A DNA stretch of 64,000 bases from the NCBI GenBank assembly GCA_036480375.1, contig JAZGGI010000020.1, positions 1 through 64,000 on the forward strand, written 5' to 3'. Position 1 is the first letter of the stretch. Each line of letters begins with the position of its first letter. The DNA is from Candidatus Zixiibacteriota bacterium (GTDB lineage: Bacteria; Zixibacteria; MSB-5A5; GN15; JAAZOE01). Positions 36,893 to 44,424 of the stretch are shown here, piece by piece. The notes beneath the pieces were generated by a model. It was given only the letters and a program-made list of their open reading frames with translations, ran no database searches and was not told where the DNA came from. Position numbers and translations under genes: made by a program.

Positions 36893-37756
36893 TTAGTATT
36901 CGGCTCTTCGCGATACGAACATTGAACTCAGTCTTAAAATCCATATTGTCAGTAAATATATAATCCCCGCCACAACTATTATCACCGCTCCGGCCGGGAG
37001 GTTGGGGCCGTAGCTAAAGCTCAATCCGAGGGTCGTGAAGAACAAACTCAATATAGTAGCGAGAACCATCATCCGTCCCAATGAATTGGTAAACTGTCCG
37101 GCTATCGCGGCCGGTAAAGTTATCAGCGCGATGACCAAAATTATGCCGACAACGGTAACGAGCAATACGACCGTCATCGCCGTCAGGATTAAAAGTAATA
37201 GATAAAAAAGTTCGACATTGACGCCTCGCAACCGGGCGAATTCTTCGTCAAAGCAGATCGCCTGGAGTTGATTATAAAATATGAAAGCCATCGCTATCAC
37301 GAAAATATCCAGGGTCGCAATCAACCACAAGTCGTTCGCCGTAACCAAGAGTATATCCCCGAACAGATAACTCATCAAATCTTCGTTATAACCCGGGGTT
37401 TGCGAAATAAATAAAATGCCGACAGCCATCCCCATCGCCCAGAGAGCGCCAATAACAGTATCTTCTCTTTGTTTGGCCCGGACACTGACCTGACTGATAA
37501 TCAGGGCCGCCAAAATAGCCGCAATAACCGCGCCATGGAGAGGCTCCAGCCAATTCCACCCATGAACTACATTAAAATATTTGGTCGCTCCCATCCCTCC
37601 CAATATGAAATGAGAAATCGCTCCAGCAACATAGCTGATTCGGCGCGTTACGACATAGCTGCCGACAACTCCGCAGGCAATCGACGCCAAAATCCCGGTC
37701 AATAAGGCGTATTGTAAAAATTGATATTCTCCCACCGCCGACCAGAATTCAATCAT
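36893..37756 (-). CDS. znuB: Zinc/manganese ABC transporter permease
   Basis: Membrane subunit of a metal-cation ABC importer (ABC-3 family, seven to eight helices). Signature blocks are ACGVVGSYVVTRRISYVAGAISHFILGGMG near the N-terminus and VGIILVIALITLPAAIAGQFTNSLGRMMVLA near the C-terminus. It overlaps the ATPase gene by 8 bp, and is the last of a four-gene operon. Confidence 0.92.
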   Translation of the reverse strand: MIEFWSAVGEYQFLQYALLTGILASIACGVVGSYVVTRRISYVAGAISHFILGGMGATKYFNVVHGWNWLEPLHGAVIAAILAALIISQVSVRAKQREDTVIGALWAMGMAVGILFISQTPGYNEDLMSYLFGDILLVTANDLWLIATLDIFVIAMAFIFYNQLQAICFDEEFARLRGVNVELFYLLLLILTAMTVVLLVTVVGIILVIALITLPAAIAGQFTNSLGRMMVLATILSLFFTTLGLSFSYGPNLPAGAVIIVVAGIIYLLTIWILRLSSMFVSRRAEY

Positions 37757-38582
37757 CGGATGAATTCTCCCTGTGGCCTTTATGCTGTAAATTCTCTACA
37801 GTTTTCTGGAGTAGGGCGCATCGTTCACAATCTTCGGTATGCGGGCAGGTAACGTCGCTATGACTGACATAGCGGACTTCTCCGCCGTATAATTTTGCTA
37901 TAATATCGCCGGTGACGGCATGGGTCGGATGCATGACCACTTTTTGATTGACGCACACGACCGATTTGATAAACGGCGCGACAAATCCAGCGTCATGCGT
38001 CACCATGACAATCGTCATCAGTTCATTCAACTTTTGGAGAAGATTATAAATTTCGTCCTGCACGCCGAGATCAACATGCGCCGTCGGCTCGTCCAGCAGC
38101 AATATTCTGGCGTTAGTAGCTAATGCCCGAGCAATCAATACTCGCTGGCGCTGTCCGCCCGATAATTCTCCAAACGGACGAAGCGCTAAATTCTGTATCT
38201 CAACCTCATCAAGGCTTTTTTCGGCTACCAGTTGATCTTCTTTTCCAAATCCACCCCAGCTTTTGCCGTTATTGAGACGCCCCATCAAAACCACATCCCG
38301 GACACGAATAGGAAATTGAGGATCGAACTGAAAATGCTGCGGCACATATCCGATAAACTTCCGAGCCTTTTCAGGGGATTGGCCGAGAACTTTTATCCTG
38401 CCCTTATCCGGTTTTAGTAATCCCAGGATCAATTTGAGCATAGTCGTCTTGCCGCCGCCGTTGGGCCCGACGACGCTGATAAAATCGAGATGATTGAAAT
38501 GCAAATTGACATCCACTAATGCCAGGCGTCCATTGTAGGAGAATGACGTATTTTCGAATATGACCACCGATTCGTTATTCAT
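37749..38582 (-). CDS. znuC: Zinc/manganese ABC transporter ATP-binding protein
   Basis: Drives metal uptake. Walker A GPNGGGKTT, Q-loop PQHFQFD, ABC signature LSGGQRQRVLIARAL, Walker B ILLLDEPTAHVD, and switch His in VTHDAG. The C-terminus has an added tail with C, H and C residues (TCPHTEDCERC), not part of the nucleotide-binding fold, which could sense or bind zinc. It has 277 residues. Confidence 0.93.
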   Translation of the reverse strand: MNNESVVIFENTSFSYNGRLALVDVNLHFNHLDFISVVGPNGGGKTTMLKLILGLLKPDKGRIKVLGQSPEKARKFIGYVPQHFQFDPQFPIRVRDVVLMGRLNNGKSWGGFGKEDQLVAEKSLDEVEIQNLALRPFGELSGGQRQRVLIARALATNARILLLDEPTAHVDLGVQDEIYNLLQKLNELMTIVMVTHDAGFVAPFIKSVVCVNQKVVMHPTHAVTGDIIAKLYGGEVRYVSHSDVTCPHTEDCERCALLQKTVENLQHKGHRENSSDD

Positions 38583-38593
38583 AAGTAAAACTT

Positions 38594-39511
38594 CTATCTG
38601 CTCAAAGCCTTCCTGATTGATCGCGTCATGGACATCATATTACTCAAATAATCCATAGCCAATGGATCAAGCGATATCACTTCGCATCCGATTTCATCGG
38701 CAATCGATTGCGCGGTTCTTTGCGAAAATTGCTCCTGCACGATTATCGCATCAATCTTTTCCCGTCGTGCAAAATCAATCAATTTCGCCAAACGCTTTCC
38801 GCCCGGTTCTTTTCCCTCCACTTGCACCGCGATTTGCCTCAGGCCATAACGGTCAGTGAAATACCCAAAAGCGGGATGAAAGACCAATAGACCCCGCCCG
38901 GAATATTCGGATAGTAGCTCCGCTATGAGTAAATCCAGAGAATCCAGTTCAGATTCAAACGATTCAAGATTCGCTTCAAAATATATTTTTTGCTGTGGAT
39001 AATTTTCACTCAGTGCGCTGCAAATATTTTCAGCCTGTATTTTAACCAATTGCGGATCGAGCCAGATATGAGGATCGTATATGCCGCGATGATGTTCATC
39101 CTCATGACGATGGTCATGCGCGTGATCTTCCATGAGGCGCAATTTTATTCCATCCTGAGTTTTTATAATTTTTATATTCGGAAATAGTCTGGATGCTTTA
39201 TTCAGAAGACGCTCTTCGAACGGAACCCCGACTGCGAAAAATATATCTGATTTGGATAAAGCGGCAATCTGTTTCGGAGTGGCGTTGTATGTCGCCGGGG
39301 ACTGTCCCGGCCCAATCAAAACCGATACGTCGATAAAATTCCCGCCAATTCTTTCCGCAAAATATTTCTGAGGCACAATACTGACGAACGCATCTGTTTT
39401 ATCATTATTCTCTTGCGCATCAGCACCGGGATTACTGAAAAACAGCGCAAAGATAATTACGAAAAGACAAAGCCTGCGCAAAACCATTTCATATTTATCC
39501 AATATCCACAT
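38594..39511 (-). CDS. znuA: Zinc-type ABC transporter substrate-binding protein
   Basis: Periplasmic metal-binding protein (cluster A-I). Signal peptide around LCLFVIIFALFF. A His-rich loop (HAHDHRHEDEHHRG) in the middle, the DPHIWLDP motif with metal ligand His, and other ligands in FHPAFGYF and the C-terminal VISLDPLAMDY. The ATG at 39511 overlaps the stop of the regulator gene (TAATG), favouring it; a later ATG at 39487 gives an ordinary signal peptide. The His-rich loop argues for zinc over manganese. Confidence 0.92.
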   Translation of the reverse strand: MWILDKYEMVLRRLCLFVIIFALFFSNPGADAQENNDKTDAFVSIVPQKYFAERIGGNFIDVSVLIGPGQSPATYNATPKQIAALSKSDIFFAVGVPFEERLLNKASRLFPNIKIIKTQDGIKLRLMEDHAHDHRHEDEHHRGIYDPHIWLDPQLVKIQAENICSALSENYPQQKIYFEANLESFESELDSLDLLIAELLSEYSGRGLLVFHPAFGYFTDRYGLRQIAVQVEGKEPGGKRLAKLIDFARREKIDAIIVQEQFSQRTAQSIADEIGCEVISLDPLAMDYLSNMMSMTRSIRKALSR

Positions 39512-39789
39512 TATTGCTTCATGATCTTTTTCATAGTGTGCTTGCATGAAATATACTTTTCATGACAATCATCGCATTCTTTGACCGAATGAGAGTGGGA
39601 AAAACTATCCCAGTGGTCCTTTTGGCTGAGCGTCAAAAATCCGGCTCCCTGGCATAACGGGCAGGTCGACGCCAGAGCCGAGGTCACCGCCGCGCGGATA
39701 AACTCGGACCGGTTGGGAACGCTTTTGAGAGCCTCAGCCAGCGTCTCATCGACTTTGAATGTTATTACTTCATCTTTATGTTTTTTCAT
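39511..39789 (-). CDS. Ribbon-helix-helix metal-type regulator with Cys/His-rich tail
   Basis: A 92-residue protein. Residues 6-40 (DEVITFKVDETLAEALKSVPNRSEFIRAAVTSAL) form a CopG/NikR-like ribbon-helix-helix DNA-binding domain, and the C-terminal half is a Cys/His-rich region (CPLC, HWDSFSHSHS, CDDCHEKYISCKH) able to bind zinc. It is the first gene of the ABC metal operon; it should repress the operon when metal is enough. A dyad overlapping the promoter lies upstream. It is unlike the usual Fur-family Zur that regulates znuABC in most bacteria. Confidence 0.8.
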   Translation of the reverse strand: MKKHKDEVITFKVDETLAEALKSVPNRSEFIRAAVTSALASTCPLCQGAGFLTLSQKDHWDSFSHSHSVKECDDCHEKYISCKHTMKKIMKQ

Positions 39790-39820
39790 AACCGCGACTC
39801 CAAATCAATATTTCCTTAAA

Positions 39821-39850
39821 GTATTACGAAGTAATACCAAAAATCAACAA
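39821..39850 (-). promoter_or_regulatory. Candidate operator and promoter of the metal ABC operon
   Basis: GTATTAC-GAA-GTAATAC (39821-39837) is a perfect 7-bp-arm dyad 32 bp upstream of the regulator start. On the minus strand TAATAC (39826-39821) can act as -10 with TTGTTG (39850-39845) as -35, spacing 18 bp. Binding of the dyad would block the -10 region. Confidence 0.6.
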
Positions 39851-39922: not shown

Positions 39923-40621
39923 ATGATTAAAATACGTAAATCAGAAGAGCGCGGCCATTTCGATCATGGCTGGCTCGATACTTATCATACATTTTCTTTC
40001 GCGCAATATAACGACCCCAACTTCACCGGCTTCCGCGCGCTTCGCATCATCAACGAGGACAAAATCCAACCCGCTACCGAATTTGGCACCCATCCTCACG
40101 AGGATATGGAAATTTTCACCTATCTGATGTCGGGGGAATTGACCCACAAGGACAGCATGGGTGACGGTTCAACGATATATCCCGGAGATGTTCAGAGGAT
40201 GACGGCTGGTTCGGGGATATTCCACAGCGAGTCGAACAATTCCAAATACACGACCACGCATCTCTTTCAAATCTGGATATTGCCGGACAAGAAGGGCCGC
40301 CATCCGGAATACGAGCAGAAGACATTTCCTTTTCCCGGAAAACAGAACATGCTGCGTATGATTGTTTCGCCCGATGGCAAGGATAACACTATTCACGTTT
40401 ATCAGGATGTCTATATGTATGATTCGGCGTTGGAGAGCGGCCAGTCGCTTACCTACAGGTTTGATAGAAAACGCCACGGCTGGATTCAACTGGCATCGGG
40501 TGAATTAAACATTAATGGCGATAAACTCTACTCCGGAGACGGCGCGGCGATAAGCGGCGAGAGAGATATTATATTCAAAGCCGAAACCGGCTGTGAATTC
40601 TTTCTGTTTGATCTGGCCTAA
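39923..40621 (+). CDS. Pirin family protein (YhaK-like)
   Basis: A 232-residue bicupin protein. Metal-binding motif GTHPHEDMEIFTYLMSGELTH with His and Glu ligands in the N-terminal cupin and the SESN motif (GSGIFHSESN). Pirins often act as quercetin dioxygenases or redox-responsive cofactors. The start is the ATG at 39923 since it begins the conserved IRKSEERGHFDHGWLDTYHTFSF block. It converges with the next gene with the stops overlapping. Confidence 0.9.
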   Translation: MIKIRKSEERGHFDHGWLDTYHTFSFAQYNDPNFTGFRALRIINEDKIQPATEFGTHPHEDMEIFTYLMSGELTHKDSMGDGSTIYPGDVQRMTAGSGIFHSESNNSKYTTTHLFQIWILPDKKGRHPEYEQKTFPFPGKQNMLRMIVSPDGKDNTIHVYQDVYMYDSALESGQSLTYRFDRKRHGWIQLASGELNINGDKLYSGDGAAISGERDIIFKAETGCEFFLFDLA

Positions 40622-41502: not shown

Positions 41503-41690
41503 GGCTTCCTTCCGGAAAATGCTCTTTTGCAGAAGATAGATTGAGTGATTTGGAAAAAACTACAAAAAACATTTATTACCCCTCATAAATTGATAATTTT
41601 ATGACGATGATATTAAAATCACAAATTTTATATCGAGCTAAGAATTGTGATAGCAATGAATTACGATTTTTTCAAAATAATGAAACTTTC

Positions 41691-41706
41691 TACGAACAAC
41701 TTCGTA
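41691..41706. promoter_or_regulatory. Candidate BlaI-type operator
   Basis: TACGAA-CAAC-TTCGTA is a perfect inverted repeat with 6-bp arms about 42 bp upstream of the blaI start. BlaI/MecI regulators bind short inverted repeats of the TAC...GTA type, so it probably controls the blaI-M56 operon. A nearby TTCGTACGAA palindrome (41701-41710) overlaps. Confidence 0.5.
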
Positions 41707-41747
41707 CGAAAATGATAGTAGAAAACAATAAACCAAGAGACAAAATT

Positions 41748-42140
41748 ATGACGGACAGGCAATCATTACCAACCGACGCGGAACTCGAAATATTAAACGT
41801 CCTTTGGGCCAACGGCCCCAGCACGGTTAAAGATGTTCACCAATTATTATCCGGCAAATCTCCACGGGGATATACGACCGTTTTGAAAATACTCCAGATA
41901 ATGAGCGAAAAAGGATTAGTAAGCCGGGATGAAAGCCAGAGAGCTCATATCTATACACCCGCTATTGAAATCAAACAGACACAGCAATCAATGGTCATCC
42001 ATCTGGTTAATAAGGTCTTTGACGGTTCGGCCGGAAGCTTGATTATGCAAGCCCTGAGTTCCCGCCCTACATCCAAAGAAGAATTGGCGGAAATCCGAAA
42101 ACTGCTGGACGAAATGGAGGGCCGCCGGGATGATAAGTAA
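41748..42140 (+). CDS. BlaI/MecI/CopY-family transcriptional repressor
   Basis: A 130-residue winged-helix repressor. The core PTDAELEILNVLWANGPSTVKDVHQLL...PRGYTTVLKILQIMSEKGLVSRDESQRAHIYTPA is characteristic. In beta-lactam signalling the repressor is cut when the partner M56 protease is activated. The start is at ATG 41748, within family length; the open frame further upstream has no similarity. It overlaps the M56 gene by 11 bp. Confidence 0.92.
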   Translation: MTDRQSLPTDAELEILNVLWANGPSTVKDVHQLLSGKSPRGYTTVLKILQIMSEKGLVSRDESQRAHIYTPAIEIKQTQQSMVIHLVNKVFDGSAGSLIMQALSSRPTSKEELAEIRKLLDEMEGRRDDK

Positions 42141-44424
42141 TTTACTTCTCACATTGGAAGCTATTGTCCGACCCTTTTCGTGGGCAATAATCCATTCGCT
42201 CTGGCAGGGCGGTGTCATTATGGTTTTATTATTTGTCGCCCTGAATATCGTCCGCGATAATGTACGACTTCGTTACGCGCTTTCTTGCTCGGCGATGGCC
42301 GGATTAATGGCTTGTTTTGTAACGACAGCCCTGATCCTGATGTTTTCGGGAAATCAGGAATCTATAGCTCAACTCAACGCTCAGCCAAAGTCGAATAACG
42401 CAACCGTTGTGCAACCCGCCTCAGACCAACAGGCGCAAACACCCTTAACATCGCAAGCTTTTCCTCAAACAATATCAACTCCGCCGATGTCAACCGGGAT
42501 ATTTCTGCTCTGGTACGTTGGCATGATGATTCTTTCGTTTTATCATCTGGCCGGATGGTTTCGGGCGCACAATTACACCCGTCGAGAGATTTCAAAAGCC
42601 AGCCCTCAATGGGAAACGCGATGGACAGAATTAGGCAACAAAATTGGATTAAGGCGTCCCCTGCAAATTCTCATATCATCCAAAATAAATATGCCCTGTG
42701 TCATCGGAGCCGTTAAACCGGTTGTACTCTTGCCCTTGTCGGCATTTTCCGGGTTGTCGGTGCAACAGATCGAACTACTGCTGACGCATGAGTTAATCCA
42801 TATCCGTCGGTACGATGTGTTAATCAATTATCTCCAAAAAATGTTTGAAACTATTCTCTTTTTCAATCCCGCCGCCTGGTTGATCTCAAGACAAATCAGA
42901 ATCGAACGGGAGCTATGTTGCGATGAAGAAGTAATCTCGCTAAGCGGCGATAACATCGCTTACGCCCGGGCGTTGACTGAGCTAGCGGGATTGCGCTGCA
43001 ATGCACCCCAATTGGCCGTGGCGGCCGGGGGCAGAACACTTATAGGGAGGATAAATAGAATGCTTAAGATAGAAACCACAAATCGCAATTTGTCCGGTTT
43101 TGGTCTCACTACCATAATATTAATGGCAGTCATATTCACCGCCGGTCTGGGTTTGCTGGGCGGAACCGCCCCGAACGCCTACGCCCAACCGGATAAATCA
43201 ATTGCCCAATCATTCGAACCGGATGACGAAGATCTCCGGGGATACTGGGAAATCGATAAACGCCGCGGAAAATATCAATTACAAATAGATTTTGATCGCG
43301 GTGGTAGAAATGTAAATACCTTCACCGAATCACAATTGGAACGCATTCTAACTCCCACCGATTGGGGCTATATGATTGAGCGCGACGCCGGCACCTTCTA
43401 CATGGTTCGCGATGATAATTCCGGCGATGATATTGAAGGCGAGGGTGAAATGTACTTTAAGGTAAACCCGGAGTACATTGAGGAATTGAAAAATCATGGT
43501 GTCAGGCTCCGCAAATCAAGGGATGAATTGGCATTTATGATACACAATATACGACTTGATTTTGTCCGCGGCCTGGCTGATTTAGGCTATGACAACCTAT
43601 CCAAAGATGAGCTATTATCAATGCACATACACGACGTTTCTCCGGATTACATTAGCGATTTAGAAAAGCTGGGATACAAATACCTGGATACCGAACAATT
43701 AGTATCTATGCAAATCCACGATGTCACTCCCGATTACATCAACGATCTGGAAAAGTCAGGCATTCATGATCTGGACGCCGAACAATTAGTATCTATGCAA
43801 ATCCACGATGTCACTCCCGATTACATCAGCGATCTGAGAGAATCGGGCATAAGTGATCTGGATGCCGAGCGATTAGTCTCTATGCAGATACATAACGTCA
43901 CTACCGATTACATCAGCGATCTGGAAAAGCTGGGATACAAAAACCTGGATACCGATCAATTAGTATCCATGCAGATTCACAACGTGGAACCGGATTTTAT
44001 TAGCGAGTTTAATGAACTGGGCTACGAGGATATCGACGCTGATCAACTCGTATCAATGCGAATCCACGATGTCGATCCCGATCTCGTTCGCGAATTGAAA
44101 AGTCAGGGTATCAAGCGAGTCAGTCTTGAGACATTGGTGTCTATGCAGATTCACAACGTCACCCCGCGCTATCTCGAACAACTGGCCGAACTCGGATATA
44201 CCAATATCAAGCCATCACAATTGGTATCGATGAAAATTCATAATGTAACGCCGAGATTTATCGAACAACTCGAGGAACTCGGAATCATAGATGTTGATGT
44301 CGAAGATTTAATTGCCATGCGCATTCATAACGTGACGCCGCGATACATTAAGCGCCTGCGCCAGGACGGCATCAAGGTAACCGACCCGGAAAAGCTCGTC
44401 GCTTTGAAAATATATGGAATATAA
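42130..44424 (+). CDS. BlaR1-type M56 membrane peptidase with tandem C-terminal repeats
   Basis: A 764-residue membrane protein. N-terminal membrane helices, the zinc protease motif THELIHIRRYD (H220, E221, H224) and ERELCCDEE make it an M56 peptidase; these cut the partner BlaI to start gene expression. A last membrane helix sits near 325-345. It lacks the penicillin-binding transpeptidase-like sensor of BlaR1. Instead, residues about 445-764 carry eleven repeats of 29 residues with the core (D/E)QLVSMQIH(D/N)VTPDYISDLEKLGY. This C-terminal part is presumably outside the cell, as sensor; the ligand is unknown. Such repeats occur in M56 proteins of Acidobacteria and Gemmatimonadota, from memory. 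Confidence 0.9.
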   Translation: MISNLLLTLEAIVRPFSWAIIHSLWQGGVIMVLLFVALNIVRDNVRLRYALSCSAMAGLMACFVTTALILMFSGNQESIAQLNAQPKSNNATVVQPASDQQAQTPLTSQAFPQTISTPPMSTGIFLLWYVGMMILSFYHLAGWFRAHNYTRREISKASPQWETRWTELGNKIGLRRPLQILISSKINMPCVIGAVKPVVLLPLSAFSGLSVQQIELLLTHELIHIRRYDVLINYLQKMFETILFFNPAAWLISRQIRIERELCCDEEVISLSGDNIAYARALTELAGLRCNAPQLAVAAGGRTLIGRINRMLKIETTNRNLSGFGLTTIILMAVIFTAGLGLLGGTAPNAYAQPDKSIAQSFEPDDEDLRGYWEIDKRRGKYQLQIDFDRGGRNVNTFTESQLERILTPTDWGYMIERDAGTFYMVRDDNSGDDIEGEGEMYFKVNPEYIEELKNHGVRLRKSRDELAFMIHNIRLDFVRGLADLGYDNLSKDELLSMHIHDVSPDYISDLEKLGYKYLDTEQLVSMQIHDVTPDYINDLEKSGIHDLDAEQLVSMQIHDVTPDYISDLRESGISDLDAERLVSMQIHNVTTDYISDLEKLGYKNLDTDQLVSMQIHNVEPDFISEFNELGYEDIDADQLVSMRIHDVDPDLVRELKSQGIKRVSLETLVSMQIHNVTPRYLEQLAELGYTNIKPSQLVSMKIHNVTPRFIEQLEELGIIDVDVEDLIAMRIHNVTPRYIKRLRQDGIKVTDPEKLVALKIYGI
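43468..44424 (+). repeat. 87-bp (29-residue) tandem coding repeats in the M56 gene
   Basis: About eleven 87-bp units; two neighbouring units (43693 and 43780) are nearly identical over some 50 bp, indicating recent expansion, while outer units are more diverged. Each encodes LVSMQIH-x-VTPxY-type text. Confidence 0.85.

Follow-up and report, generated by a model that had tools for sequence, protein, structure and literature searches.

What controls zinc import at a znuABC operon whose first gene encodes a small ribbon-helix-helix (RHH) protein with a cysteine- and histidine-rich tail? Control of bacterial zinc import is credited to Zur, a Fur-family protein, and to AdcR, a MarR-family protein, and a review of the subject names no RHH protein (PMC6103462). 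Rodionov et al. (2004) found znuABC but no ZUR regulator or ZUR sites in some delta-proteobacteria, and proposed that these species either have no zinc-specific regulation or employ another mechanism (PMC545781). We analyzed the locus in a 64,000-nucleotide stretch of a Candidatus Zixiibacteriota genome (hereafter, the window) and compared it across its phylum and beyond. The evidence makes it likely that the product of the first gene, here called rhh, represses its own operon for high-affinity zinc uptake in a zinc-dependent manner and has no relation to Zur; its binding to DNA, zinc as its ligand and zinc as its co-repressor are inferred.

The rhh gene heads a zinc-type transporter operon

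The window's gene order is rhh-znuA-znuC-znuB, with rhh at the head of a tight operon (Table 1). The rhh stop codon and the earliest possible znuA start share bases (TAATG), 11 bp separate znuA from znuC, and znuC and znuB overlap by 8 bp. A ZnuA-type binding protein, an ATPase and an ABC-3 permease are encoded together, which meets the definition of a ZnuABC-type cluster A-I transporter. The best solved-structure matches of the window's ZnuA are zinc-uptake proteins, with manganese types far lower in score, and the protein carries a His-rich loop, HAHDHRHEDEHH. The rhh product has the sequence MKKHKDEVITFKVDETLAEALKSVPNRSEFIRAAVTSALASTCPLCQGAGFLTLSQKDHWDSFSHSHSVKECDDCHEKYISCKHTMKKIMKQ. Translation and Pfam matches thus bear out the original prediction, made without database searches, that an RHH regulator with a Cys/His tail heads a zinc ABC operon.

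Table 1. Positions of the features discussed, in window coordinates or residues of the rhh product
Feature	Position	Strand	Basis
rhh, 92 aa	39511..39789	-	translation; ATG at 39789, stop at 39511
RHH domain, N-terminal	residues ~5-40 of rhh product		RHH model matches
Cys/His domain, C-terminal	C43, C46, H59, H67, C72, C75, C82		sequence, family alignment
Operator, heptads GTATTAC and GTAATAC, 10 bp center to center	39821..39837	-	unique in genome; conserved in family
Proposed promoter, -35 TTGATT (39847-39842) and -10 TAATAC (39826-39821)	39821..39847	-	inferred from position
znuA, zinc-type periplasmic binding protein	38594..39511	-	PF01297, E 4e-69
znuC, ABC ATPase	37749..38582	-	PF00005, E 7e-31
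znuB, ABC-3 family permease	36893..37756	-	PF00950, E 8e-72
ATPase tail TCPHTEDCERC	37818..37850	-	sequence; comparison of 99 rows

The prediction had also pointed to an extra Cys/His tail on the ATPase, TCPHTEDCERC. The sequence is present, but its importance was over-read and it lies outside the conserved system. In a comparison of 99 rows, the tail occurs in two, which are duplicates of one genome; it is shared with G070 and in part with G071, and was dropped as a component of the system because it is confined to a few close relatives. ZnuC tails elsewhere are variable and often His-rich.

Three further observations concern the window. Its ZnuA has SPATYNATP where the aligned structures have DPHTYEP or EPHEYEP; judged from sequence alone, an alanine seems to replace the first histidine ligand, as in the binding proteins of two other loci (L102 and L123). 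A pirin-family gene (39923-40621, + strand) is divergent from rhh, with the operator inside the shared intergenic region; we rejected it as a co-regulated partner, as only two further genomes, both of the same family, have a pirin homologue near rhh (L049/L078 and L054). Finally, a BlaI/BlaR-like gene pair occupies 41601-44424 (+ strand), and its second protein has about ten repeats of ~20 aa of the type LVSMQIHDVTPDYI.

An RHH domain is joined to an invariant Cys/His domain

Alone, the window's rhh protein falls below the curated cut-offs of RHH models, the best model for its N-terminus being the archaeal cell-cycle regulator aCcr1 (E 1e-5). The family gives a firmer assignment: the aCcr1-type RHH model is matched by all 54 diverse members at E<=0.01 (best E 1e-7) and the RHH_1 model by 25 of them (best E 5e-5), and the sequence-profile criterion for the Ribbon-helix-helix (CopG/MetJ/Arc) superfamily is met at the family level. 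The tail has the pattern CPxC...H...H...CxxC...C, and its five cysteines and two histidines are invariant in 54/54 members, as are G48 and G50 (within a CPxCxGxG motif) and the RHH core residues N26, S28, F30, I31 and R32. The DnaJ CXXCXGXG zinc-finger model is matched by 26/54 members, and the tail scores weakly with the DnaJ and anti-TRAP zinc-binding models.

We found no curated whole-protein model or solved structure for the rhh product in Pfam, NCBIfam or PDB. A structure model, a monomer prediction of middling confidence (pTM 0.47), places helices at residues 15-21 and 27-38 and contains no strand, and a Foldseek search with it returned no significant PDB match. The strand of an RHH protein pairs within the dimer, so a prediction of the monomer alone might be expected to lack it.

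The family is widespread and accompanies znuABC

Searching contigs with the single protein yielded no relatives, while a profile built from the family alignment yielded 200, from which 80 were kept. Their records are titled Zixiibacteriota, Spirochaetota, Deltaproteobacteria, Desulfobacteraceae, Planctomycetota, Bacillota, Glassbacteria, Gemmatimonadales, Omnitrophota and others. Orthologues are present in 45 of 133 Zixibacteria genomes as well as in several other phyla, usually adjoining znuABC. At all 44 phylum loci inspected, ZnuA and/or ZnuC is encoded directly downstream of rhh, and ZnuB too if the contig extends that far; at G091 and G093 the order is rhh-znuC-znuB, with znuA absent from the operon. 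Most loci outside the phylum have the same gene order. Within the phylum, a ZnuA-family gene is found in 45/45 genomes with rhh versus 47/88 without (Fisher 9e-10), a test that, like the one below, counts related genomes and overstates their independence. A tree of these short proteins resolved few deep forks, and no claims of gene transfer were drawn from it.

The conserved operator is a pair of heptads

The original prediction named a perfect dyad, GTATTAC-GAA-GTAATAC (GTATTACGAAGTAATAC), overlapping the proposed -10. The dyad is there and is perfect, 31 bp upstream of the rhh start codon, and nowhere else in the 3.6-Mb genome does GTAWTACNNNGTAWTAC have a match with one mismatch or none. 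The conserved unit, however, must be corrected to two pseudo-palindromic heptads, GTAWTAC-N3-GTAWTAC, spaced 10 bp center to center. Inverted pairs (GTATTAC/GTAATAC, the window type) are common, and so are direct pairs (GTAATAC/GTAATAC); conservation therefore does not extend to the overall dyad.

With up to two mismatches allowed, the operator was found no more than 250 bp upstream of all 44 orthologues in the phylum (40 with at most one mismatch) and of 51 of the 62 in other phyla, compared to about 0.3% of dinucleotide-preserving shuffles at the same threshold. The 11 orthologues outside the phylum with no operator within 250 bp are mostly spirochaete copies located away from, or convergent with, znuABC. 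A dyad unconserved upstream of orthologous operons would have refuted the prediction; instead, gene order and operator both recur, within the phylum and beyond. As a separate observation, six Spirochaetaceae copies of rhh without a nearby box (L083, L126, L129, L138, L141 and L144) are followed by a conserved gene of ~420 aa (MATGSKRLRQVISLDLELNKLQDLD...).

Most sites in the family have a TTGACA-like box whose end lies 3-6 bp ahead of the operator's first heptad. Therefore, the second heptad falls on the -10, which, by inference from position, is where a repressor would be expected to sit. In the window, too, the proposed -10 lies inside the second heptad, and the predicted overlap holds in this positional sense; the promoter itself has a weak -35 and a 15-bp spacer, and was not listed by a promoter scan.

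A relaxed version of the pattern occurs in 40/45 phylum genomes with rhh versus 11/88 without (Fisher 2e-18), usually once per genome. The 11 include G092, an incomplete assembly from a genus that has rhh. In other phyla, the 34 genomes examined typically have one copy of the pattern or none, and a copy, when present, is mostly at the rhh/znu locus. Extra sites were considered and set aside as evidence of a regulon. Eight further operator-like sites at unrelated places in G069 (L186-L194) lie in similar repeated sequence and not in promoters of zinc genes; they could titrate the regulator or be due to chance. Single extra sites in G066, G070, G028, G094 and G067 have no obvious zinc-related gene and were taken as chance.

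These data bear on two alternative explanations. The boxes could be the target of a Zur/Fur protein in place of the rhh product, or a general promoter element, with rhh as a mere passenger. Fur-family genes are common in the phylum, and the overlap with the -10 means that AT-rich promoter sequence inflates the similarity between sites. Against this, the pattern tracks the presence of rhh and is usually unique in a genome, and it is unlike the zinc-regulator boxes of delta-proteobacteria, TAAATCGTAATnATTACGATTTA and ATGCAACnnnGTTGCAT (PMC545781). We regard this explanation as very unlikely. The second alternative, that rhh encodes an antitoxin, partition or cell-cycle protein (of the CopG, Arc or aCcr1 type) that neighbors znuABC by chance, draws support from the aCcr1 model being the best for its N-terminus, below cut-off as that match is. 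It is all but ruled out by the association with znuABC in many phyla with conserved gene order and operator, by the lack of a toxin gene adjoining rhh, and by the conserved Cys/His tail, which lies outside the 38-position aCcr1 model.

Operators follow the transporter genes, also in trans

Genomes in which rhh and the transporter genes are separated give decisive support to the reading that the rhh product acts on zinc uptake. In G091 and G093, znuA is distant from the rhh operon and has an operator upstream of it. The boxes of G092 lie just before a ZnuA domain match, and rhh was not found in this 83%-complete assembly. The spirochaete G136 has rhh-znuC-znuB and a separate znuA, each with a perfect site. 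At L100, L117 and L152, all from spirochaetes, rhh and znuABC are transcribed toward each other, and the boxes precede znuA instead of rhh; two of these loci (L117 and L152) add a third heptad that keeps to the 10-bp register. In G151, rhh lies away from znuABC, and the boxes (L228) are upstream of a COG0523 gene that is next to znuABC. The trans sites of G150 and G152 are degenerate. Boxes that follow the transporter and not rhh are hard to explain unless they serve zinc-uptake genes. We required of a zinc uptake regulator that its operator sit on promoters of zinc-uptake genes, in trans as well, and the sites above fulfil this; zinc-dependent DNA binding, the other requirement, has only the invariant Cys/His residues in its favor. 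Separately, a small His/Cys-rich ORF of G093 (LFHNHGIEHCCDHAVIKHNHICP; L200 1879-2226, + strand) has a further box at its start and is a possible additional zinc target.

Zinc is the favored signal

The neighbors of rhh in other phyla support zinc specificity, as they include COG0523 GTPases and a ZIP transporter. At L124 and L142, both from spirochaetes, the gene immediately after rhh encodes a CobW/COG0523 GTPase, and the boxes lie ahead of rhh. L141 and L144 have a COG0523 gene in front of rhh, and a ZIP-family transporter gene overlaps rhh at the Omnitrophota locus L119. The Zur regulons of many species include COG0523 genes (PMC5387054).

The rhh product could still repress the operon in response to a different signal, either another metal (manganese, iron or cobalt) or thiol oxidation. 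A Cys/His cluster could hold several metals or be a redox switch, and cluster A-I transporters include manganese systems. Moreover, a CopG-family gene of Treponema denticola, TDE0264, is up 2.9-fold in oxygen (PMC2965109), with its kinship to rhh not established. Against a non-zinc signal, the binding protein is closest to zinc-type known structures and has a His-rich loop, the COG0523 and ZIP neighbors are typical of zinc regulons, and the window genome encodes another transporter, of the TroABCD/manganese type (L204, G000:C39:18500-28500), with no rhh beside it. This alternative is unlikely. The L204 transporter has two permeases, seemingly with DtxR-like C-terminal domains.

It could also be argued that the Cys/His tail is a structural zinc finger, and that the rhh product is an autorepressor without metal modulation, with metal control exerted elsewhere. 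The tail does resemble the DnaJ and anti-TRAP zinc-binding domains, and zinc fingers can be purely structural. However, seven invariant Cys/His residues exceed the needs of one structural site, and a constitutive repressor would leave zinc uptake uncontrolled in a genome where no Zur is evident. We think this improbable. The single Fur-family gene (PF01475) of the window genome adjoins feoA and was read as Fur, which leaves no evident Zur there. Some other genomes with rhh encode two to four Fur-family proteins, and in these it is possible that Zur coexists with rhh.

Comparison with known metal regulators

By analogy, NikR, the nickel-responsive RHH repressor, is the nearest functional counterpart of the rhh product: it likewise joins an RHH domain to a metal-binding C-terminus and represses a metal-uptake operon, and its half-sites in delta-proteobacteria, GTGTTAC...GTAACAC, are similar (PMC545781). 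The likeness to NikR in the original prediction held only in part, because the RHH half alone is shared; the C-terminal metal-binding (ACT-like) domain of NikR had no match in the rhh protein in Pfam or NCBIfam scans. In addition, NikR half-sites are 13-14 bp apart, compared to 3 bp for rhh (93 aligned sites), and, unlike NikR, the rhh product has a short, zinc-finger-like Cys/His tail and targets znuABC, COG0523 and ZIP genes.

The job inferred for the rhh product is that of Zur, autoregulated repression of znuABC and COG0523 genes, but the fold of Zur is unrelated and its operator is different; the rhh product has no match to the FUR domain (PF01475). AdcR is likewise a non-Fur, zinc-dependent repressor of zinc import, but it has the winged-helix MarR fold, and scans of the rhh product gave no MarR match. 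The archaeal cell-cycle regulators aCcr1/CdrS provide the closest model for the RHH half, but rhh falls below that family's cut-off, its tail is not covered by the model and its gene context is different. Anti-TRAP and DnaJ CXXCXGXG domains have the CPxCxGxG motif in common with the tail, but align to it over only part of the domain and occur in RNA-regulator or chaperone contexts.

A proposed mechanism of zinc-dependent repression

RHH repressors are a model for binding in which one dimer occupies each site and inserts a beta-ribbon into the major groove. We propose that the rhh protein would dimerize through its RHH domain, with a beta-ribbon bearing a conserved E-I/V-I/V-T-F-K stretch entering the major groove, and that one dimer would bind each pseudo-palindromic GTAWTAC heptad. 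Two dimers would then sit side by side over the promoter, one helical turn apart and on the same face of the DNA, and occupation of the second heptad would cover the -10 and exclude RNA polymerase. The C-terminal Cys/His domain (CPxC, H59, H67, CxxC and C82) is predicted to bind zinc, the zinc-bound protein favoring the operator; when zinc is short, the protein would release the operator and rhh-znuABC would be transcribed. Zinc is expected to act as a co-repressor because uptake would otherwise go on without a check when zinc is in surplus. The predicted novelty, a different design of zinc-sensing repressor, is supported to this extent, while DNA binding, zinc binding and the sign of the response remain inferences.

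We found no RHH regulator of zinc uptake in the literature that we searched; most subscription journals and databases such as RegPrecise were outside this scope, and an earlier prediction is possible. It is likely that rhh represents a broad, undescribed family of metalloregulators that works through tandem GTAWTAC boxes and ranks with Zur as a second major means of controlling zinc uptake; in some lineages it would govern a small regulon of znuABC, a COG0523 GTPase and a ZIP transporter. The family is possibly an answer to the gap noted in 2004, with the reservation that rhh is not established in those exact delta-proteobacterial species. If its response to zinc is as inferred, the rhh product offers a small model of a zinc-responsive RHH protein without the NikR domain. 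The GTAWTAC motif can be used by annotators across many uncultured phyla, and, for bacteria that have znuABC and no obvious Zur, the family provides candidates for both regulator and operator.
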